The position numbers were made by a program, and so were the translations under genes. Below the pieces are notes generated by a model. It did not search any database. It was given only the letters and a program-made list of their open reading frames with translations, and had not been told where the DNA came from. Of a DNA stretch of 64,000 nt, positions 40,493 to 51,491 are shown one piece after another. Origin of the DNA: Gammaproteobacteria bacterium (lineage in GTDB: Bacteria; Pseudomonadota; Gammaproteobacteria; UBA4575); the NCBI GenBank assembly GCA_026713925.1, contig JAPONM010000061.1:1-64000 (forward strand), given 5' to 3'. How positions within the stretch are numbered: position 1 is the first letter of the stretch; each line of letters begins with the position of its first letter.

Positions 40493-41359
40493 TTAGGCGG
40501 CATGCGTCATTTTTCGGGCAATATCGTAGATGACATTTGCATCCAGCACCTGATCGTTGGAAGTAAACAGTTTTTCAATACAGGTGCGGTGGAGTTTGAG
40601 TTTCAATGCACCGATTCCAAGGCCTCCAAATATCCTCTTGCCAAATCTTTCGATATTCCTGTCGGTCATGTGAATGCCTTCAAAACCGGATGCCTCGGCT
40701 GTATTGACATCGGCCAGAACCTCAAGAGTGTCATGTTGCTGCCACTGACTAGCGTTGAGCAACTGAATGCCTGCCTTAGCAGTGCCGAATACGATCTGTG
40801 CGCCTTCCAGTGCAGCCACAGTGGAACCGGCATCACTGGCTTCTACTGGCTCAAGTGTGACCGCAAATCGTTTTTCCATCTCTTTACACGCTTGTTCGGA
40901 GCGGTTTTGCTTGCGAGAAGTCAGCCGTACCCGAGCGCCACTTTGTGCCAGCATCACTGCGATGCGCTGACCCACTGGACCAGTACCTGCCAGCACCACT
41001 GCAATCTTGCCTTGCAATGCTGTGGTTGAGTCTAGCAGGGCAACACTGGCAGCCGCAGTCGTATTGCATCCGTTGCTATCGAGCATCACTGACACGCGGA
41101 AGTTTTGAAAGAACCGGCTTTTGACAGCTTCAAACAGGGACTGCCCTGCAGCAAGATCACTCCCGCCAACAAAGATTGCAGTATTTTTTTTGTGTTTTGG
41201 TGCACGGGTGTAGATGGCGCCATCAACCAGGCTTGCACAGTTGTTCTCATGAATACCTCCGAGTTGAGTGACGTGGTCCGCGCCCCCGTCGTAGGCGACA
41301 ACAGAATCAAACACACTGGGGACAGGGTCAGTATCGAAGTGATATAAAAGCTTTTTCAT
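40493..41359 (-). CDS. mtdA: NADP-dependent methylene-THF/methylene-H4MPT dehydrogenase MtdA
   Basis: A 288-residue enzyme matching Methylorubrum MtdA almost end to end: LLYHFDTDPVPSVFDSVVAYDGGADH, AIFVGGSDLAAGQ, MLDSNGCNTTAAASVAL, the nucleotide motif VLAGTGPVGQR, and FGGLGIGALKLKLHR. MtdA converts methenyl- to methylene-tetrahydrofolate (reversibly, NADPH), supplying the C1 unit for serine. Its Arg/Ser/Lys-rich loop RLTSRKQNRS is where the NADP 2'-phosphate should sit. It lies in the serine-cycle operon, 39 bp after ppc; the usual partner fch is absent from the cluster. Confidence 0.93.
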   Translation of the reverse strand: MKKLLYHFDTDPVPSVFDSVVAYDGGADHVTQLGGIHENNCASLVDGAIYTRAPKHKKNTAIFVGGSDLAAGQSLFEAVKSRFFQNFRVSVMLDSNGCNTTAAASVALLDSTTALQGKIAVVLAGTGPVGQRIAVMLAQSGARVRLTSRKQNRSEQACKEMEKRFAVTLEPVEASDAGSTVAALEGAQIVFGTAKAGIQLLNASQWQQHDTLEVLADVNTAEASGFEGIHMTDRNIERFGKRIFGGLGIGALKLKLHRTCIEKLFTSNDQVLDANVIYDIARKMTHAA

Positions 41360-41398: not shown

Positions 41399-44173
41399 CT
41401 AGCCCGTGCTACCAATGCCTGCAGCCACACAGTTGATTGATAAAAGCAGGGAAACTAGTACGTCTTGTCTGTCCTCTACACTGGACTGATCATCGCGAAA
41501 CTTCTTGACCAACTCAGCCTGTTCGATGCCTATTTGATTCAGGGAATTCAGCCGTCGATTAAAGTGTCGTTTGAAGTTGGGAAAGCGATCACATAATCGT
41601 TCTTCCCCGGTGACCTGCAAAATCATTTTCTTGGTGCGCGCATATTCAGAACGTATGTCTGAAAAAATTGTTCTGCTGTAATGGGAATTTGTTACCAGCT
41701 CTGAATATTTTTCAGCCACTTCCATGTCAACCAATAGTAATGTTTTTTCAACACTATCCAATATGAGTCTGAATAGAGGATGTTTATTATATAACTCCTG
41801 CAGCAGTTCTTTTCCGAGTTCGCCTCGAATCCCGATAAGCTGTTCAAAGCTGCTACCAACTCCATACCAGCCAGGAACCAGGATACGGTTTTGTGTCCAG
41901 GCAAATACCCAGGGAATTGCACGCAGATCCTCCAAGGTTGAGGCGCCAAATCTGCGCGAAGGCCTTGATCCGATTTTCATTAGCGTTAATTCTTCAACTG
42001 GGCTTGCTTGCTGATAGAACTCCATCAGACCGGGAATTTCAATAAATTTTCGGTACGTGACATATGCGGTACCCGAGAGTGCTTCCATGACTTCATCCAG
42101 TTCAGCATTGGTTTGATAGGCCAGTTCTTTGCCTGACATAAGCGTGTGGGTGAGTGCACTGGAAGCAAGTATTTCCATTTGTTCTTCTGCAAATCCACGG
42201 TTTGCATACTTGTAAGACACGACTTCCCCCTGCTCCGTGACTCGCATGCGTCCATTAATCGTACCGGCCGGCTGTGCTGCGATAGCGCGCCCGCTTGGTG
42301 CGCCCCCCCGGCTTACAGAGCCTCCTCGGCCGTGAAAAAATGAGATTGGAATTTTGTGTTTGCTGCCTGCCTCCCTGATCAGGGTCTGGGCTTGACTGAT
42401 GACCCAGTTGGAAGTAAGGAATCCACCGTCTTTGTTCGAGTCGGAATACCCCACCATAATCTCTTGTGAACCCCCATGTTTGCGTATCGTCCGTCTGATA
42501 AATCCGTGTGCCAGTAACTCATTCAGAATGGCGGGTCCGTTTTTAAGGTCCTCGAAGGATTCTAGTAGGGGAACTACCAGGATTCGGCAGGCTTCAAGAC
42601 CATCAGCATCAGTAAACAAGCCGACATACTTTGCGAGGAGGTAAACACCCAGTACGTCAACGGAGGTTTGCGTTGTGCTGAGTATGAAGGGGCCAAATGT
42701 TTTGGGGTCCAGCTTACTGCGGTAATGTTTGACCTGTTCAAGCATGGCCAGTGTGGCCTGCGCCTGTTCGGAGAGGATGTCAATGTTCGGTATCACGCGC
42801 AACGGCTGCATGAGTTCACTCGTGATCCATTCCTTCCATTCATCGGATTTGGAATCCGGGACATCGAAGTGTGTTTTTTGATAGCAGGCCTGCCAAATTT
42901 CTGCAAGGACACCGTTTGTAACGGTCGTATTTTCACGAAGGTCCAGGCTGGCTGTACGGAATCCGAAGGTATTGACCATATGGCGCAACGGTGACACATT
43001 CGATGTGCTCAGGTGCTCGCATCGGGAGTCGTTCAGACCTAGCTCAAGTGTTTGCAGGTCGTCTGACAGGTCAGCTGCATTATGATAGGCAATGGTTGAT
43101 TTGGCCGGGTTATCAATATGTTCCAGGGTTGCATCGATTCTACGCAGCATACAGCTCAGGTATTGACGATAAATCTCGCCCGGGTATCGTTTTGAAAGGG
43201 ATTCGACTTTCCCGAGCAGCTCCAGTTTTTGTTTCAAAGCTTCGATAAAATCCTCTGGGACCCTCACTGAATGACTGGCAATGCTGAGCTTTGCGCCGAC
43301 TTTAATCAATTCCTGACGATATCGTTTTAAGCAGGTTTTGGCACCTTCATGAATGGCGAATGCTGTAACTTCGGTATTTACATGGGGATTCCCATCCCGG
43401 TCTCCACCTATCCAGGTGCCAAAACGGAACAATGGCGGTACATCAAACTCAAAGTGCGGGTATGTCTGTCTTAATGCACGATCCAGTTCGCTGTAAAATT
43501 TCATTACGCCGTCGAACAGGGATTCTGTAAAAAAATGCAGCCCCCAGGTGACTTCCTGGGCAACAGTTGGCTTTTCCAAACGAATCTCACCTGTTAGCCA
43601 CAACAGATCAATTTCGTTGCGCAGTTCGAGAGTCAGGTCTTCACGTTCTTGGGGTGTCCAGCGTGTCAGTTCCAGTTGTTTCAGCAAAATATAAATCCGC
43701 CGGTGTATTTCCAGCACTGTTACACGCTTGGCTTCGGTGGGGTGCGCCGTGATTACCGGGCAGATGCAACTGTTTTCCAGAACTTTCTGGAGCTCTTCTG
43801 CTGGAATGTCGTGCTGGGCCGCTGTGGAGAACGTATAGGCAAAGGTCCCTGGAACGCGCTCACGCCCATATTCTTTTTCAATCTGCCTGCGCCGCTGCAC
43901 TGTCGTATTTTGTTCAGCGATACTGAGCAGTTGAAACCAGATACCATAGGCCTCAAGGATATATAGAACCTGTGAACCTGTACTGTCACGAATGTCTTTC
44001 TGACCTTCAAAAAATGCTTCTATGTCAGGTTGTCGGATACGCAGCACGCTAAGTAGCTGCTTGTGCAGCAGGGATACCAGCTTGTTTTCATGACTTGCAG
44101 CTGGATCAATGATTGTGCGACCTGTGGCGACCCTCGTTAGCTGAGTCCAGGAAAGTTGTGGGGCATCATTCAT
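41399..44173 (-). CDS. ppc: Phosphoenolpyruvate carboxylase
   Basis: 924 residues, longer than E. coli Ppc (883) and close to the serine-cycle Ppc size. Active-site motifs: ITAHPTEAKR (H144), FRFGTWIGGDRDGNP, GYSDSNKDGGFLTSNW and FFHGRGGSVSRGGAPSG. It makes oxaloacetate from PEP and bicarbonate, the carbon-fixing step of the serine cycle. The C-terminus is GIGSTG; the canonical end is QNTG, where the final residues close the active site. Methylotroph Ppc enzymes can lack acetyl-CoA control. 105 bp follow the reductase gene. Confidence 0.94.
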   Translation of the reverse strand: MNDAPQLSWTQLTRVATGRTIIDPAASHENKLVSLLHKQLLSVLRIRQPDIEAFFEGQKDIRDSTGSQVLYILEAYGIWFQLLSIAEQNTTVQRRRQIEKEYGRERVPGTFAYTFSTAAQHDIPAEELQKVLENSCICPVITAHPTEAKRVTVLEIHRRIYILLKQLELTRWTPQEREDLTLELRNEIDLLWLTGEIRLEKPTVAQEVTWGLHFFTESLFDGVMKFYSELDRALRQTYPHFEFDVPPLFRFGTWIGGDRDGNPHVNTEVTAFAIHEGAKTCLKRYRQELIKVGAKLSIASHSVRVPEDFIEALKQKLELLGKVESLSKRYPGEIYRQYLSCMLRRIDATLEHIDNPAKSTIAYHNAADLSDDLQTLELGLNDSRCEHLSTSNVSPLRHMVNTFGFRTASLDLRENTTVTNGVLAEIWQACYQKTHFDVPDSKSDEWKEWITSELMQPLRVIPNIDILSEQAQATLAMLEQVKHYRSKLDPKTFGPFILSTTQTSVDVLGVYLLAKYVGLFTDADGLEACRILVVPLLESFEDLKNGPAILNELLAHGFIRRTIRKHGGSQEIMVGYSDSNKDGGFLTSNWVISQAQTLIREAGSKHKIPISFFHGRGGSVSRGGAPSGRAIAAQPAGTINGRMRVTEQGEVVSYKYANRGFAEEQMEILASSALTHTLMSGKELAYQTNAELDEVMEALSGTAYVTYRKFIEIPGLMEFYQQASPVEELTLMKIGSRPSRRFGASTLEDLRAIPWVFAWTQNRILVPGWYGVGSSFEQLIGIRGELGKELLQELYNKHPLFRLILDSVEKTLLLVDMEVAEKYSELVTNSHYSRTIFSDIRSEYARTKKMILQVTGEERLCDRFPNFKRHFNRRLNSLNQIGIEQAELVKKFRDDQSSVEDRQDVLVSLLLSINCVAAGIGSTG

Positions 44174-44278: not shown

Positions 44279-45250
44279 TTAGACCAGCTTGTCTTTTGGT
44301 GACTGGCCTGCTTCAAATGCAGCCAGGTTATCCAACACTCGGTTACCCATTGCGATCCGTGTTTCAGTTGAAGCACTCCCTAGATGAGGAAGCAGCACAG
44401 CATTTTCCAATTCAAGGAAACGCTCATCCAGACTAGGTTCACCTTCAAAGACATCAAGACCTGCACCTGAAATTGTGCCATTTTTCAATGCTTCGATCAG
44501 CGCATCATTATCCACTACATCACCACGTGCCGTATTGATTAAAAATGCACTGGATTTCATTTTGGCAATGTTTTCGTTGTTGAGCAGATGATACGTTTCC
44601 TTGCCGCCCGGGCAGTGCACCGAAACAAAATCCGAGATTTCAAGAACTTCATTGATCGATTCACACTGCGTTGCATCAAACTCCTTGATTACATCGTCAG
44701 AAGGCGGGTAAGGATCCACGAAAACTATATTCATCCCGAAGCCATGATGCGCCCGTTTGGCAACGGCCTGTGCAATCCTCCCCATGCCAATCATACCCAG
44801 TGTTTTGCCTGTAACCTTGGTAGCCAGCAAATGAGTTGGTCGCCAGCCTGTCCAAGCTTTTGCACGTAAATGACGTTCACCCTCACTTGTGCGCCGCGCC
44901 ACAGTCAGCAACAGTGTCATGGCAATATCGGCAGTGCAATCAGTTAGCACCTCAGGTGTATTGGTAACAGTGAGTCCACGTGCCTTGGCAGCATCCAGGT
45001 CAATGTGGTTAAAACCGACGCCGAAGTTGCCAATAAATTTTGTGCGCAGTGGCTCTGTACTCAGTACTTCTGCATCAACGGGGTCTGTAACTGTGGGCAG
45101 GAAAGCATCACATGCACCCAGTGCATTCTTCATTTCTTCTCTGGTCATTGCAACGTCAGTCTCATTCAGTTGCACGTCATATCTTTCTTTTAATGTTGCT
45201 TCCACTTCTGCAGGCCAAGCACGTGAGACGATGACTTTTAATTTGCTCAT
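44279..45250 (-). CDS. D-2-hydroxyacid dehydrogenase, probable hydroxypyruvate/glyoxylate reductase (GyaR type)
   Basis: 323 residues with the NAD motif GMIGMGRIAQAVAKR and the catalytic Arg/Glu/His set in NTARGDVVDNDAL, GLDVFEGEP and LLPHLGSAS. In this operon it should reduce hydroxypyruvate to D-glycerate. The sequence resembles the GyaR/GHRB-type D-glycerate dehydrogenases (NFGVGFNHIDLDAAKARG, WTGWRPTHLLATKVTGKTLG) more than Methylorubrum HprA, so a different family member appears to fill the HprA slot. It lies 12 bp after mtkB. Substrate preference is inferred from context. Confidence 0.88.
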   Translation of the reverse strand: MSKLKVIVSRAWPAEVEATLKERYDVQLNETDVAMTREEMKNALGACDAFLPTVTDPVDAEVLSTEPLRTKFIGNFGVGFNHIDLDAAKARGLTVTNTPEVLTDCTADIAMTLLLTVARRTSEGERHLRAKAWTGWRPTHLLATKVTGKTLGMIGMGRIAQAVAKRAHHGFGMNIVFVDPYPPSDDVIKEFDATQCESINEVLEISDFVSVHCPGGKETYHLLNNENIAKMKSSAFLINTARGDVVDNDALIEALKNGTISGAGLDVFEGEPSLDERFLELENAVLLPHLGSASTETRIAMGNRVLDNLAAFEAGQSPKDKLV

Positions 45251-45262
45251 TTTACTTTTCTC

Positions 45263-46153
45263 CTAGGCAACTTCTTTCATGACCTTTTCCATGGTTGAGC
45301 CAAGCTCTGATGGGTCGGGTGCAACTGTGACTCCGGCTTCTTGCAGCATTGTCACTTTTTCAGCAGCACTTTCTCCCTTGCCGGAAACGATTGCGCCTGC
45401 ATGGCCCATACGGCGGCCTTTAGGTGCAGTTAGGCCAGCAATGTAGGCTACCAATGGCTTGCTCATATGTTGTTTGAAATATTCCGCAGCTTCTGCCTCC
45501 TGTGGGCCGCCAATTTCCCCGATCAGCATCACTGCCTTGGTTTCCGGGTCGGCTTCAAACAGTTCAAGTATATCCCGATGTGAGCAGCCATTAATGGGAT
45601 CACCACCAATACCGACACTGGTCGAAACCCCGATTCCGCAGGCCTTCATTTGAGAGGCTGCCTCATAACCTAGTGTGCCCGAGCGGGCCACTATGCCTAC
45701 GTTGCCAGGCATGTAGATATGGCCAGGCATAATGCCAAGCAGGCATTTGCCCGGGCTGATGGTGCCTGCACAATTTGGGCCTGTCAGGCGCATGCGGTCC
45801 TCTTTTTTGTAGCGGTACATGTAACGTTTGACAAGCATCATGTCCTGTGCAGGAATGCCGTCGGTGATTGCAACACAGGTTGTAATGCCTGCATCCGCAG
45901 CTTCCATAATTGAATCAGCAGCGAACGAAGCAGGTACGAATACTATGCTGGCATCTGCACCTGTTTCCGTTACGGCATCCTTCATTGTATTGAATACAGG
46001 CAGCCCAAGATGGGTTTGGCCTCCTTTGCCAGGGGTTACACCACCGACCACCTGTGTGCCGCATTCGAGCATTTCCTTGGCATGAAAGGTACCAATCTTC
46101 CCGGTAAATCCCTGAACCAGTACCCTGGTTTCGTTATCGATCATTACGCTCAT
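45263..46153 (-). CDS. mtkB: Malate-CoA ligase (malate thiokinase), alpha subunit
   Basis: A 296-residue member of the succinyl-CoA synthetase alpha family. CoA-binding GFTGKIGTFHAKEM, RSGTLGYEAASQM and the phospho-His H251 in RRMGHAGAIVSG are all present. It is close to methylotroph MtkB throughout. With MtkA it forms malyl-CoA from malate, ATP and CoA. Malyl-CoA lyase, serine-glyoxylate aminotransferase and Ppc genes nearby make malate, not succinate, the expected substrate. It starts 18 bp after mtkA. Confidence 0.93.
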   Translation of the reverse strand: MSVMIDNETRVLVQGFTGKIGTFHAKEMLECGTQVVGGVTPGKGGQTHLGLPVFNTMKDAVTETGADASIVFVPASFAADSIMEAADAGITTCVAITDGIPAQDMMLVKRYMYRYKKEDRMRLTGPNCAGTISPGKCLLGIMPGHIYMPGNVGIVARSGTLGYEAASQMKACGIGVSTSVGIGGDPINGCSHRDILELFEADPETKAVMLIGEIGGPQEAEAAEYFKQHMSKPLVAYIAGLTAPKGRRMGHAGAIVSGKGESAAEKVTMLQEAGVTVAPDPSELGSTMEKVMKEVA

Positions 46154-46171: not shown

Positions 46172-47350
46172 CTATGCAGCATTGATGACACGGTTACGCT
46201 CAGCCACCACTTTCTCTGCAGCTTCGGATAGCGTGTTTGCAGTAATCACCGGGTAGCCACTGTCTTTGAGCATTTGCATGCCTTTTTCTACATTTGTGCC
46301 GGAAAGACGTACAACCACGGGAGTTCTGACATCCAGTTTGCCAAACGCCTGTATGACACCTTCGGCAATCCAGTCGCAGCGGTTGATGCCTGCAAAAATA
46401 TTGACCAGCATTGCCTTCACGCTTTCATCATCCAGTACCAGTTTGAACGCCTTGGTTACCCTGTCTGGAGAGGCTCCACCTCCGATGTCCAGAAAGTTGG
46501 CAGGTTCCCCGCCTTTGTGTTTGATCATATCCATGGTAGCCATTGCCAGCCCGGCACCGTTGATCATGCAACCTATATCCCCATCGAGACCAACGTAACT
46601 CAGGCCTCGGTCTGAAGCGGCAGTCTCGCGCGAGTCTTCCTGGGATTTGTCACGTAACTCGGAGATCCTTGGACGTCGGAACAGGGCATTGTCATCAAAA
46701 CTCATCTTGGAATCCAAGGCCAGAATATGGTTGTCCTTGGTTACTACTAGAGGGTTGATTTCAACAAGTGTGGCATCGAGTTCTCGAAATGCGCGGTAGG
46801 CTCCTTCGACACAATGCACTGCCTGGCTGATCAGTTCGGGATGAATATTAAGTGCAAAAGCAAGTTCCCGTGCCTGGAAATCCCGCAAACCTACTGCAGG
46901 TTCTATTTCCAGCCTGAATATTGATTCCGGTTTTGTAGCAGCCACTTCCTCAATGTCCATGCCACCTTCGGATGAAGTGACAATGACTACTCGCTGTTTG
47001 TTTCGATCCAGAACCAGAGCAAGGTAAATTTCGCGTTCAATTTCTGAGACCTGTTCAATGTACAGGCGATACACTACCTTCCCGTTCGGCCCGGTCTGGT
47101 GGGTTACCAGACGTTTACCGAGCAATTCTTCTGCTGCATTCCATATCTCTTCGTCATTCGAGCAGACTTTTATACCACCTGCCTTGCCTCGTGCGCCGGA
47201 ATGGATTTGTGCCTTGACTACCCATTGGTGACCTCCAATTTCCTTGGCCCGGTAGACAGCTTGTTCAGGACTGTATGCGAGTCCACCTGGCGCAATACTT
47301 ACACCAAATTCTGATAACAGTTCTTTCGCTTGATACTCATGGATATCCAC
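46172..47350 (-). CDS. mtkA: Malate-CoA ligase (malate thiokinase), beta subunit
   Basis: 392 residues. An ATP-grasp N-terminal half ([31 protein letters not shown]) and a CoA-ligase C-terminal half ([48 protein letters not shown]). It matches Methylorubrum MtkA far better than SucC. The start is GTG 47350. The 187-bp gap upstream, towards mcl, holds hairpins, so transcription may be partly re-set here. Confidence 0.94.
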
Positions 47351-47537: not shown

Positions 47538-48479
47538 CTATGACTTGGCAGCAATTGCCTCAGCAGCACGTACAATATTCTCAGCCATACGAGCTGAAGC
47601 TGCATCTATCATTTTACCATCCAGTGAAGCGGCTCCCTTACCTTCCTTGGCAGCTTTTTCCAGCTCTTCGAGAATTCTTTTGGCCTTGGTGACTTCAGCT
47701 TCAGGTGGTGTGAAGACTTCATTTGCCAGCTCAATCTGTCTGGGGTGGATTGCCCATTTTCCTTCGCATCCCAAAGCTGCTGCACGACGCGCTGCCAGCA
47801 AATAACCGTCAGGGTCATCGAAATCACCAAATGGACCGTCAATCGGACGCAGCCCATAGGCACGGCATGCAACAGTCATGCGGGAAATCGCAGCATGCCA
47901 CTGATCACCAGGGTAGTCCGGATTTAAACCACCAATATTGACAGTGCGGGCACGATTGCTTGCTGCATAATCAGCTACTCCGAAATGCATGGCCTCCAGT
48001 CGTGCACTGGACGTTGCAATAGCTTCAACATTTGCCATTCCCAGGGCTGTCTCGATGAGGGCTTCAAGGCCTATCCTGTTTTCGAGACCTTTCGCCTCTT
48101 CAATCTGGGTCACCATGGCATCCACCATGTACACATCGCCAGTGGTGCCTACTTTTGGAATGAGTATAGTGTCCAGCTTGCTGCCCGCCTGCTCGACGAC
48201 ATCCACTACATCACGGTACATGTAATGGGTATCCAGTCCGTTGATGCGCACTGAAACTGTTTTGCCATGGCCCTTCCAGTCGTGTTCATTTAACGCTGCA
48301 ATTATATTTTTGCGTGCCTGCACCTTGTCATCGGGTGCCACGGCATCTTCCAGATCAAGAAACACATAGTCTGCAGCACAGGTAACTGCCTTTTCTATCA
48401 TTCTGGGGTTGGATCCCGGTACAGCCAGTTCACAACGTTGTATCCGTTGCCGGGCAGGTTTGTATTGGGTAAAGCTCAT
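47538..48479 (-). CDS. mcl: L-malyl-CoA lyase
   Basis: A 313-residue HpcH/HpaI (citrate-lyase beta-like) enzyme. Motifs: RCELAVPGSNPRMIEKAV, VFLDLEDAVAPDDKVQARKN, VRINGLDTHYMYRDVVDVVE, LEALIETALGMANVEAIA and FGVADYAASNRART, nearly identical to Methylorubrum MclA. It splits malyl-CoA to glyoxylate and acetyl-CoA, the step that regenerates the glyoxylate acceptor of the serine cycle. It lies 20 bp after sgaA. Confidence 0.95.
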   Translation of the reverse strand: MSFTQYKPARQRIQRCELAVPGSNPRMIEKAVTCAADYVFLDLEDAVAPDDKVQARKNIIAALNEHDWKGHGKTVSVRINGLDTHYMYRDVVDVVEQAGSKLDTILIPKVGTTGDVYMVDAMVTQIEEAKGLENRIGLEALIETALGMANVEAIATSSARLEAMHFGVADYAASNRARTVNIGGLNPDYPGDQWHAAISRMTVACRAYGLRPIDGPFGDFDDPDGYLLAARRAAALGCEGKWAIHPRQIELANEVFTPPEAEVTKAKRILEELEKAAKEGKGAASLDGKMIDAASARMAENIVRAAEAIAAKS

Positions 48480-48499: not shown

Positions 48500-49750
48500 T
48501 TACTTTTTGGCTGCAACTCTTGCTTCACGAGGAGCTTTGGCTGAACCGAATTTCTTGATCTTCTTCGCAGTTTTACGGTAGTACTCGCCGGCTGCTGCAA
48601 CACCGCTGCCAGGCTTCACGTTCATACCGGCATCGCGCATTGCCATTTCCACTACGCCAAGAACAGCCATCATGCGGGCTTCATTATTGTCTCCCAGGTG
48701 TCCGATCCTGAAAACCTTGCCGGCAACCTTTGACAGGCCTGCACCTAAAGATACATTGTAGCGGTGATAGGCAATATGAATCACTTCTGCAGCATTGACA
48801 CTCGGAGGTACCTCAATTGCAGTCACGGTATCGGAATACCATTTAGGTGCCTTGGCGCAAGGTTTCAATCCCCAAGCCTTGATCGCTCTGCGCACACCTT
48901 CGGCCAGTCGATGATGGCGTTTGAACACGTTCTCCAGACCTTCTTCCAGGAGCAGGTCTATTGACATACGCAATCCACGCAGCATGGGTACCGAAGGGGT
49001 ATAGGGAAAATAACCGTCTTTGTTGGTATTGATATGGTCCTGTATGTCCAGGAAGCAACGCGCACATCGGGCTTTTTTACGAGCCCTCAATGCCTTGGAG
49101 CTGAACGCAACAATAGCCATGCCCGCAGGCAGCATGAATCCTTTTTGCGACCCACTGACTGCCACATCCACGTTCCATTGATCCATACGAAAATCTATGC
49201 TGGCAATCGAGCTTACCCCGTCCACCATCAGCATTGCCGGATGTTTCACGGCATCCATTGCCCGGCGCAGTCCCGCTATATCACTGGTTACGCCTGTTGC
49301 AGTTTCATTGTGACAAACCACTACTGCCTTGATCTTGTGTTCCTTGTCCATGGAAAGGATGCGCTTGAATTTTGCAATCGGGACACCTTCTCCCCAGGGG
49401 GTTTCAACGAGTTCGACATCCAGGCCGATCCGGCATGCAAGGTCATACCACAGGTGGCTGAACTGTCCGAATCGTGTAGTCAGGATTTTGTCTCCAGGCG
49501 ACATGGTATTGGCCAGCGCCACTTCCCAGCCTGCTGTGCCGGTTGCAGGGAATAGAAAACATGTACCCTTTGTCGTTTTGAAAATCTTTTTGCAGTCACG
49601 CAGCAGTGGCTTGACAAGCTCTGGAAAATCAGGTGCCCGGTGGTCCTCTTGTGGGACAATCATGGCATTTTGCACAGCCTGGGGGATATGCGTAGGGCCT
49701 GGTGCAAATAAGTAATTTCTTCCAGGAAAAGCTAATTTTTCGCTAGGCAT
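48500..49750 (-). CDS. sgaA: Serine-glyoxylate aminotransferase
   Basis: 416 residues from ATG 49750, which has an AAGGA ribosome site; the open frame 5' of this lacks family similarity. A class V aminotransferase starting NYLFAPGPTHIP, with PLP lysine K203 in VSGSQKGFMLPAG and VDGVSSIASIDF. It moves the amino group of serine to glyoxylate, giving hydroxypyruvate and glycine. The C-terminal tail is Lys/Ala rich (KKIKKFGSAKAPREARVAAKK), longer than usual. Confidence 0.95.
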   Translation of the reverse strand: MPSEKLAFPGRNYLFAPGPTHIPQAVQNAMIVPQEDHRAPDFPELVKPLLRDCKKIFKTTKGTCFLFPATGTAGWEVALANTMSPGDKILTTRFGQFSHLWYDLACRIGLDVELVETPWGEGVPIAKFKRILSMDKEHKIKAVVVCHNETATGVTSDIAGLRRAMDAVKHPAMLMVDGVSSIASIDFRMDQWNVDVAVSGSQKGFMLPAGMAIVAFSSKALRARKKARCARCFLDIQDHINTNKDGYFPYTPSVPMLRGLRMSIDLLLEEGLENVFKRHHRLAEGVRRAIKAWGLKPCAKAPKWYSDTVTAIEVPPSVNAAEVIHIAYHRYNVSLGAGLSKVAGKVFRIGHLGDNNEARMMAVLGVVEMAMRDAGMNVKPGSGVAAAGEYYRKTAKKIKKFGSAKAPREARVAAKK

Positions 49751-49870
49751 AATAAAAATCCTTGTTCCGATGTGTAGTAAAAAGCGAATGTGCCTCGGTT
49801 GTTGTTCCTGCGATTGGAACGGCCATTCCCGCTGAAACAGTCTTTGTCCGAAAAACCCAGCATCTTGCCA

Positions 49871-49932: not shown

Positions 49933-50850
49933 TCAGGGCTGTTTATCGGGATTCAGGTAAATAAAGCTCTTGCCCAGACGACCGCCGTAGTTACCGGCAG
50001 AAATCATGATTAGCCCTGGTGTATCCACGGAGGCCCTGATGGCAGCTTGCGTGGCGTCAATGATGGGCTGCATGCCCTGACCATTCATGATAATTTCCAT
50101 TACCGAATGAACACCTTGGGGCAGACTCGCCTCGACGCCCGGGTCATTCTGCAACATCGGGCAGAATTTCTCATAGGTGCTGGCAATGGTGAAGTCATAA
50201 CTGCTTCCCGCCTTGGAACCACTTCCCGCAATTCCTCCCGGAAAAGTGGTGATCACGCCAGGTATGGGTTCAATGGCTATCACCCCTTTTTCAGCCGCCT
50301 CGAGCGCTGAATCCACGCTGTCACCAAAAAACCACAAATTACCGCCCATCAGGCCATCGTCATACCCAAGCCTGCGGTCCAGAACGAATTCGCCCCCCAG
50401 TATGGGGATCCACCACATTTTGCGTCCAAACCGTTCAATGCGTTTTTGATGGCCATCTCCAAAGTAGGCTACCTTGCGGCCCATGTGGTAATAGTCTTCT
50501 GAATCGATCAGGTTGAAACATGAAGCAGTCGGACAGGTAAGCACATTCTGGCTGATTCGCACCAGTGCTGAACGTTCCAGGGCCTTGACGCGGTCCTTGC
50601 GGAAACGCGGGATATGCAGTTGCACAATGGCCCCTGGTCGACCGTCAGGAGTTGCGAAATCCTCATCTCCACCGGGTCCTACGTAGCGGTCCATGCCCGC
50701 TTCGCAGTCACATAGGATGGAGCTTGAAGCATTGCCGGTGGCTGCATGAACGGCATGGTCCAGCCATTTCCGGTCACGTGCAGTGATCAGGAATTCAGTG
50801 TACAGGCTCCTGAACGCTTCTGCGTAGGTATCATCGATTTTTGCTGCCAT
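49933..50850 (-). CDS. Formylmethanofuran:tetrahydromethanopterin formyltransferase family (Ftr/FhcD)
   Basis: 305 residues covering the whole Ftr fold: DTYAEAFRSLYTEFLITA, then ATPDGRPGAIVQLHI, VLTCPTASCFNL, GGEFVLDRRLGYDDGLMGGN, FPGGIAGSGSKAGS and ISAGNYGGRLGKSFIYL. Known Ftr/FhcD enzymes move a formyl group between methanofuran and N5 of tetrahydromethanopterin. There are no fhcA, fhcB, fhcC, mch or fae genes here. Instead the ATG lies 2 nt after the stop of a 5-formyl-THF cyclo-ligase gene and within a serine-cycle operon. Ordinary H4MPT-pathway function is the conservative reading; formyl transfer to folate N5 is a testable alternative. Confidence 0.9.
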   Translation of the reverse strand: MAAKIDDTYAEAFRSLYTEFLITARDRKWLDHAVHAATGNASSSILCDCEAGMDRYVGPGGDEDFATPDGRPGAIVQLHIPRFRKDRVKALERSALVRISQNVLTCPTASCFNLIDSEDYYHMGRKVAYFGDGHQKRIERFGRKMWWIPILGGEFVLDRRLGYDDGLMGGNLWFFGDSVDSALEAAEKGVIAIEPIPGVITTFPGGIAGSGSKAGSSYDFTIASTYEKFCPMLQNDPGVEASLPQGVHSVMEIIMNGQGMQPIIDATQAAIRASVDTPGLIMISAGNYGGRLGKSFIYLNPDKQP

Positions 50851-50852
50851 AT

Positions 50853-51491
50853 CTAGTCCCGCCCAATACCTTCATAGACAGCATCCTCGGTGATGACCTT
50901 GTCCATGTAGACGTCATGAGGGGCAACCAGGACCTCATCGAAAAGTTGTGATTCATAGCACAAGGCCACCAGTGGGCAATTCGGGCGCGCTTTTTCAAGC
51001 AGGCGGTCATAGTAACCCTGTCCATTTCCCATGCGCCCTCCTTTTCTGTCAAATCCCACGCCCGGCACCATAATGATATCCAGGTCCTCCGGCTCCACTT
51101 CTTTTTCAGGATTCCCCCACAGTTCCCTGGGTGGTTCAAGAATGTTCCACTTGCCTACGACCATTTCCTCCAGACTTTCCATCCACCACAGACCCAGTTT
51201 GTTTTCGCCGTTCTCGTCTTCAGTGCAATAGGGTACGATGATTTTCTTTTTGCCCCTGGCCACTTCTTCCAGCAGGTGTGACTTGGTGCGGGTTTCGGAG
51301 CGGCAGTCAATGTACCACATTGCAATGTTTGAACGGTGGTACTCGGGGAGGTCCATGAATCTCTGGCAGGCCAGTGCACTGATTTCATCCTTGTTTTCCT
51401 GCGCTTTGCGGCGGTCATAGGCTTCACGCCGCATCTTGTTTTTGCGCTCCATTACGGCTTCAAGTTCTTCGGGGGATAATAGTATAGCCAT
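50853..51491 (-). CDS. 5-formyltetrahydrofolate cyclo-ligase family protein
   Basis: 212 residues from ATG 51491, with a strong AGGAG 5 bases upstream. The family signature is PGVGFDRKGGRMGNGQ, followed by GYYDRLL (143-165); the N-terminal basic helix ERKNKMRREAYDRRKAQ is the ATP/folate region. The enzyme turns 5-formyl-THF plus ATP into 5,10-methenyl-THF. The sequence does not look like the typical gammaproteobacterial Fau and recalls planctomycete-type members. It is first in the serine-cycle operon, directly before ftr. Fau normally sits beside 6S RNA, where it is absent here. Confidence 0.9.
   Translation of the reverse strand: MAILLSPEELEAVMERKNKMRREAYDRRKAQENKDEISALACQRFMDLPEYHRSNIAMWYIDCRSETRTKSHLLEEVARGKKKIIVPYCTEDENGENKLGLWWMESLEEMVVGKWNILEPPRELWGNPEKEVEPEDLDIIMVPGVGFDRKGGRMGNGQGYYDRLLEKARPNCPLVALCYESQLFDEVLVAPHDVYMDKVITEDAVYEGIGRD

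Follow-up and report, generated by a model that had tools for sequence, protein, structure and literature searches.

How do one-carbon (C1) units reach the folate of a serine-cycle bacterium that lacks both FtfL and Fch? The question is raised by a window of 64,000 nucleotides (positions 1 to 64,000 of contig JAPONM010000061.1, from a gammaproteobacterium), in which an Ftr-type formyltransferase gene sits next to a 5-formyl-THF cyclo-ligase gene. The cyclo-ligase gene, cl (50853..51491), and the formyltransferase gene, ftr2 (49933..50850), both lie on the minus strand and are separated by 2 nt in the ORF list of the window. The cl gene starts with the ATG at 51491, with AGGAG just upstream. 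Its product, a member of a special subfamily, scored 124 bits against TIGR02727 (cut-off 84.9) and was above the cut-off of PF01812; a match to PF06411 was judged spurious. Ftr2 is a paralogue within the Ftr family and the proposed THF N5-formylating enzyme. In the profile scan it reached 309.7 bits with NF002554 (cut-off 297) and stayed slightly under the cut-off of the FhcD equivalog TIGR03119 (289.2, cut-off 292.6). Its two lobes, PF01913 and PF02741, were both over the cut-off with 144.5 and 153.6 bits.

The pair is followed on the minus strand by the serine-cycle genes. The first is sgaA (48500..49753), which encodes an aminotransferase of the serine/aspartate-glyoxylate type (NF045640, 599 bits, under the cut-off of 650) and starts with the ATG at 49753, preceded by AAGGA. 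It is followed by mcl (47538..48479; malyl-CoA lyase type, matching the CitE/malyl-CoA lyase families), mtkA (46172..47350; malate-CoA ligase beta subunit, NF010647 with 687 bits, cut-off 604) and mtkB (45263..46153; the alpha subunit, over the cut-off of succinate/malate-CoA ligase alpha families). Further downstream are hpr (44279..45250), a D-2-hydroxyacid dehydrogenase and probable hydroxypyruvate reductase with matches to the glyoxylate/hydroxypyruvate reductase families, and ppc (41399..44173), a phosphoenolpyruvate carboxylase matched almost over its full length by NF000584 (759 bits). The last gene is mtdA (40493..41359), a methylene-THF/H4MPT dehydrogenase type (PF09176 Mpt_N, 103 bits) that would reduce methenyl- to methylene-THF. 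All the serine-cycle genes that were searched for (sga, hpr, ppc, mtkAB and mcl) are thus present in the window. The ORFs and the family scans agree with an earlier note on this DNA, which had placed the pair at the head of a serine-cycle operon. The order and the strand hold, whereas co-transcription of all nine genes does not follow from them. Since ftr2 and sgaA are separated by a gap of 179 nt, a single operon from cl to mtdA is only plausible. A promoter-like site upstream of cl (51580-51551) was within chance expectation, and the terminator scan was no more informative.

The folate-loading genes were searched for with profiles in the genome of the window's own organism (1.99 Mb in 64 contigs, 92.8% complete). 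Neither FTHFS/FtfL nor Fch (FTCD_C) was found in this 92.8%-complete assembly. The only cyclo-ligase is the one in the window. Besides ftr2, there is one further Ftr gene, a canonical fhcD within the fhc/fwd cluster of contig C25, whose product scored 409 against TIGR03119 (cut-off 292.6). The earlier note had proposed that the pair replaces FtfL and Fch. It had regarded as contrary evidence an intact ftfL-fch pair elsewhere, or an FhcABC set with Ftr2 as its only Ftr. The genome has neither gene of the pair, its congeners lack both as well, and its Fhc set has an FhcD of its own, so that Ftr2 is not the sole Ftr of this genome. Both genes are also missing from the single-contig relatives G007 and G012; the absence is therefore not merely missing sequence, and an oversight through incomplete assembly was ruled out. 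Among the 19 genomes of the same family, own genome included, 18 encode Ftr2 at 81% identity or more besides FhcD, and the one without Ftr2 (G010) also lacks cl. Of the 19, a single genome had FTHFS over the cut-off, and none had Fch.

The gene order was then compared between relatives. Wherever the flank was available, cl lies directly before ftr2 across the family. The order ilvD-cl-ftr2 or cl-ftr2 was seen in all same-family genomes with a flank and in most other loci, which argues against adjacency by chance. In the family's other genera folD and then sga come after ftr2, so that in most relatives folD fills the position of the 179-nt gap. In the window's genus folD sits elsewhere, in the own genome on contig C25. 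The FolD encoded beside ftr2 resembles the structurally known bifunctional FolD and keeps the Y-x-x-x-K, QLPLP and DVDG motifs. The earlier note had named MtdA as the finishing enzyme; in the genomes compared, FolD is a usual partner of the pair alongside MtdA.

A scan with one genome per species gave 47 Ftr2 loci, nearly all from MAGs by record title. They belong to several gammaproteobacterial families, including Candidatus Porisulfidus sponge symbionts, 'Thiothrix' records and UBA2778, and to Planctomycetota. The hosts, which live in the sea or in association with sponges, have not been cultured, and many bear the names of sulfur oxidisers. Most gammaproteobacterial loci had the order cl-ftr2-folD-sga-mcl-mtkA-mtkB-hpr. 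In G385 (CP070821, a chromosome record of 2.6 Mb; locus L050), cl-ftr2-folD is divergent from hpr, an aminotransferase gene, mtdB and mch. The search for a canonical FhcD in this record gave no match, so that Ftr2 is the only Ftr found there and G385 is the exception to the arrangement in the own genome. In a planctomycete locus (L083:4826-6901), ftr2 and a neighbouring gene are divergently oriented; the neighbour resembles by eye panB, a methylene-THF user.

The co-occurrence of the genes was analysed in 41 genome records with Ftr2 (33 gammaproteobacterial and 8 planctomycete, some possibly near-duplicates). The special cyclo-ligase was present in all 41, with 48-92% identity to that of the window, the window itself aside. 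Outside these records the cyclo-ligase matches had 24-46% identity, with the upper values coming from short stretches; the one exception was a match of 51% in G265. In four Planctomycetota (G390, G391, G394 and G398) both genes are present on different contigs. FTHFS was missing in 36 of the 41 records and Fch in 40. The five with FTHFS are G014, G102, G225, G391 and G395, the last of which has Fch too. Apart from G385 and G398, all Ftr2 genomes that were tested have a separate canonical FhcD as well.

For a control, we used the FhcD-only members of a set of 369 genomes drawn evenly from the Gammaproteobacteria. In this class draw, with phylogeny ignored, FTHFS was present in 31 of 39 FhcD-only and 2 of 11 Ftr2 genomes (p = 3.6e-4), and Fch in 22 of 38 and 0 of 11, respectively (p = 4.7e-4, likewise with phylogeny ignored). 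When families were counted as units, the contrast in FTHFS lost significance (p = 0.06). FtfL is also missing in some FhcD-only genomes. Since the p-values ignore phylogeny, the one-to-one pairing with the cyclo-ligase and the synteny weigh more. Two FTHFS matches carry one in-frame TGA each, at C1:83704-85341 in G101 and at C95:3446-5086 in G224 (both of family f84). In G265, the special-type cyclo-ligase gene with 51% identity lies beside two tandem genes for dehydrogenases that look Mpt_N-type by eye (L151:7608-10479). This genome has FtfL and Fch and no Ftr2; its cyclo-ligase may be a relic or have another use.

Both proteins were then placed in trees. The cyclo-ligase tree had long branches among the ordinary enzymes, and only the clade of the special cyclo-ligases was used. 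They form one clade (support 99/98), in which the planctomycete pair L075/L087 is nested among the gammaproteobacteria, the same as in the Ftr2 tree. The distances of Ftr2 and cyclo-ligase were correlated in a mirror-tree comparison (r = 0.889), and none of 5000 permutations was as high. These trees indicate that the two genes were co-inherited into Planctomycetota. The cyclo-ligase has the G-x-G-x-GYYDR motif, and most motif positions and E66 are invariant across the subfamily.

Ftr2 likewise forms one clade (100/100), whose stem measures 1.33 changes per site. The clade lies outside the FhcD and archaeal Ftr sequences sampled. It is thus distinct from FhcD, a point that the earlier note had left to phylogeny. 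The median identity of Ftr2 is about 42% to archaeal Ftr and about 36% to FhcD of Methylorubrum extorquens, compared with about 47% between bacterial FhcD and archaeal Ftr. Members of the clade, which come from two phyla, are 64-92% identical to the window Ftr2. A single change of function followed by strong constraint would be expected to leave such a pattern. In the alignment, Glu245 of M. kandleri, known from an Ftr-ligand structure as the key catalytic residue, corresponds to E252 of Ftr2 and is conserved in Ftr2 and FhcD alike. In the comparison with FhcD and Ftr, 58 columns were common and 17 were switched, inserted positions included; columns 19, 77, 79, 100, 114, 128 and 168 (Ftr2 numbering) are among the latter. 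The predicted fold of Ftr2 (pLDDT 73) matches 1ftr, 1m5s, 1m5h and 6s6y with a TM of about 0.75.

The source of the formyl group was sought in the cluster on C25. It contains mch, an Mpt_N-type dehydrogenase gene (MtdB type), genes for a MptN-like ligase and a methanofuran-synthesis-like protein, and then fhcC-fhcD-fhcA-fhcB. FhcB has 452 aa and aligns along all of its sequence with archaeal FwdB (E about 1e-110), whereas FhcB of M. extorquens matches weakly (4e-13). It retains the FeS cysteines (CxxCxxxCDD) and the SVCHGPS cysteine and is not of the reduced hydrolase type, and a FwdD-like subunit is encoded after it. Since FhcB is of the FwdB type and FwdD is present, we read the sole fhc complex of the window's genus as an archaeal-type formylmethanofuran dehydrogenase, which is predicted to release CO2 and not formate. 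If the H4MPT branch yields no formate, FtfL would have little substrate, and formyl-methanofuran (formyl-MFR) is the natural branch point. The suggestion of the earlier note that free formate is bypassed is thereby strengthened for this genus. Dehydrogenase-type FhcB was also seen in G388 (Porisulfidus), G197, G303, G057, G386 and G393. The hydrolase type was present in G007, G012, G005, G138 and G102, and both types in G014.

Archaeal-type Fwd clusters (fwdD, active-site FwdB, A, Ftr and C) were observed in many Gammaproteobacteria, namely at L150:639-2365 (own C25), L155, L157, L158, L159, L164, L165, L166, L168 and L169. A 2016 opinion article had described fwdD as absent from Proteobacteria (PMC5020050). 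In L168 (G029) and L169 (G136), which are from FhcD-only gammaproteobacteria, clusters of the dehydrogenase and the hydrolase type lie in tandem about 7 kb apart. Selenocysteine in FwdB of the Porisulfidus-type genomes was rejected on the basis of L157 and L166, whose correct reading frames encode Cys. Near the fhc/fwd cluster, C25 encodes a methanethiol oxidase (NF052453, 762 bits, cut-off 650), which is a likely source of formaldehyde and suggests methanethiol as a source of C1 units and sulfur. The oxidase gene is accompanied by MauG-like di-haem and SCO-like genes (L150:4501-8954).

Ftr acylates the N5 of a pterin, and the substrate of the cyclo-ligase is 5-formyl-THF. We consider it probable that Ftr2 and the special cyclo-ligase constitute an N5 folate-loading route from an archaeal-type carrier, which best explains the genomic data. 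C1 units would be oxidised on H4MPT from methylene via methenyl to 5-formyl-H4MPT by MtdB and Mch, and the canonical FhcD would carry the formyl group from H4MPT to formyl-MFR. Ftr2 would transfer the formyl group from formyl-MFR or formyl-H4MPT to the N5 of THF. The resulting 5-formyl-THF would be converted by the cyclo-ligase to 5,10-methenyl-THF with one ATP, and its reduction by FolD and/or MtdA would give the methylene-THF that serine hydroxymethyltransferase and the serine cycle need. Such loading would stand in for FtfL and Fch at equal ATP cost and make free formate unnecessary, while 10-formyl-THF for purines would still be available through the cyclohydrolase of FolD. In genera with dehydrogenase-type Fwd, formyl-MFR would be the fork between oxidation to CO2 and assimilation. 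From the sequences we infer THF as acceptor, formyl-MFR as donor, the assimilatory direction, for which the ATP-driven cyclo-ligase argues, and the expression of the pair. The Fhc complex of M. extorquens binds its methylofuran tightly (PMC8141765), so formyl-MFR may be out of reach for Ftr2. Together with G385, which lacks FhcD, this makes direct use of formyl-H4MPT possible, a donor that fits G385 equally well.

Alternatively, the pair might act wholly on H4MPT. Ftr2 would then make 5-formyl-H4MPT from formyl-MFR, and the cyclo-ligase would use ATP to form methenyl-H4MPT, bypassing Mch in an ATP-driven reductive branch with MtdA working on the H4MPT form. Activity on 5-formyl-H4MPT has been suggested for cyclo-ligase homologues of methanogens (PMC3087415), an MtdA-type gene lies in the window, and in G265 the special-type cyclo-ligase gene adjoins the two Mpt_N-type dehydrogenase genes, their family judged by eye. 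However, in most lineages the pair is followed by folD, which encodes a folate enzyme, and the same genomes have Mch, which closes the ring reversibly without ATP. Where FtfL is missing, no entry into folate would be left, and we regard this alternative as unlikely.

The two enzymes could also be an ordinary pair, with Ftr2 a redundant or conditional isoenzyme of Ftr. 5-Formyl-THF is an inhibitory by-product of serine hydroxymethyltransferase, and the textbook role of the cyclo-ligase is to clear it, here in a high-flux serine cycle. The window cyclo-ligase is the only one of its genome. However, most FhcD-only genomes have an ordinary cyclo-ligase that is not linked to Ftr. The long stem of Ftr2 followed by high identity across two phyla and the co-inheritance of the pair into Planctomycetota also argue against mere redundancy, and folate loading would stay unexplained. 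We consider this quite improbable. Since known members of the Ftr family are reversible, Ftr2 might drain 5-formyl-THF by passing its formyl group to methanofuran, to end as formate or CO2, with the cyclo-ligase competing or recycling, but this is very improbable, as the ATP-driven step towards methenyl-THF opposes drainage and the cluster leads into the serine cycle, a consumer of methylene-THF.

If the N5-loading route operates, it would be a third junction between H4MPT and folate, beside formate with FtfL and the spontaneous capture of formaldehyde. 5-Formyl-THF, commonly regarded as a dead end or a storage form, would gain a place in central carbon flux together with its cyclo-ligase. As FtfL and Fch are missing, C1 assimilation in the host bacteria seems incomplete by standard annotation. 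The small set of two or three genes might feed C1 units into synthetic serine-cycle strains without free formate.

The enzyme families are known and appear here in a new connection. Ftr2 shares with canonical Ftr and FhcD the fold, both Pfam lobes, the Glu245 equivalent and the 58 conserved columns. It differs by its separate clade outside FhcD and archaeal Ftr, an identity of about 36-42%, the 17 switched columns and its gene location, as no fhcABC or fwdABC genes were found adjacent to ftr2. The proposed acceptor is THF, whereas Ftr and FhcD use H4MPT. The FtfL-Fch-MtdA link of M. extorquens is similar in that it delivers methylene-THF to the serine cycle with one ATP per C1 unit, has MtdA as the last enzyme and is encoded with or near serine-cycle genes. 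However, it starts from free formate at N10, whereas the window's genome has no FtfL or Fch and the proposed route would use N5 formyl transfer and the cyclo-ligase.

The Hakuba Actinobacteria have a fwdDBA-ftr-fwdC cluster, a THF Wood-Ljungdahl pathway and no genes for H4MPT synthesis (PMC7325909). They likewise combine a methanofuran-type complex and Ftr in a folate-using bacterium. Unlike ftr2, their ftr lies within the fwd operon, and in the passages of that report that deal with these genes folate is loaded via formate and neither a transfer from Ftr to THF nor a pairing with a cyclo-ligase is proposed (PMC7325909). In the open literature we found no paper that joins methanofuran or methylofuran with 5-formyl-THF as a route, and none in which the cyclo-ligase, formylmethanofuran and the serine cycle come together. 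The earlier note knew of no description of such a route, which holds for the Ftr step but not for a general N5 entry through the cyclo-ligase.

Such an entry was postulated by Braakman and Smith as an unrecognised uptake of formate, at N5 as read from the context, that feeds the cyclo-ligase in organisms lacking 10-formyl-THF synthetase; they saw it as an intermediate between the methanogenic and acetogenic pathways (PMC3917532). In a CO2-fed version of our route, Fwd of the dehydrogenase type would reduce CO2 to formyl-MFR, and Ftr2 and the cyclo-ligase would lead on via 5-formyl-, methenyl- and methylene-THF to serine. We hold this version to be unlikely. If true, it would join the archaeal methyl branch with the bacterial one at N5 in a single hybrid pathway, and the postulated intermediate in C1 reduction would have a living example. 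Taken together, N5 loading and the use of the cyclo-ligase in place of 10-formyl-THF synthetase are common to the postulate and to the route proposed here, which, if true, would name an enzyme for an entry step postulated from phylogenetics. Braakman and Smith have formate as the source and name no enzyme (PMC3917532), whereas our proposal would have an Ftr-type transferase act on a carrier-bound formyl group.
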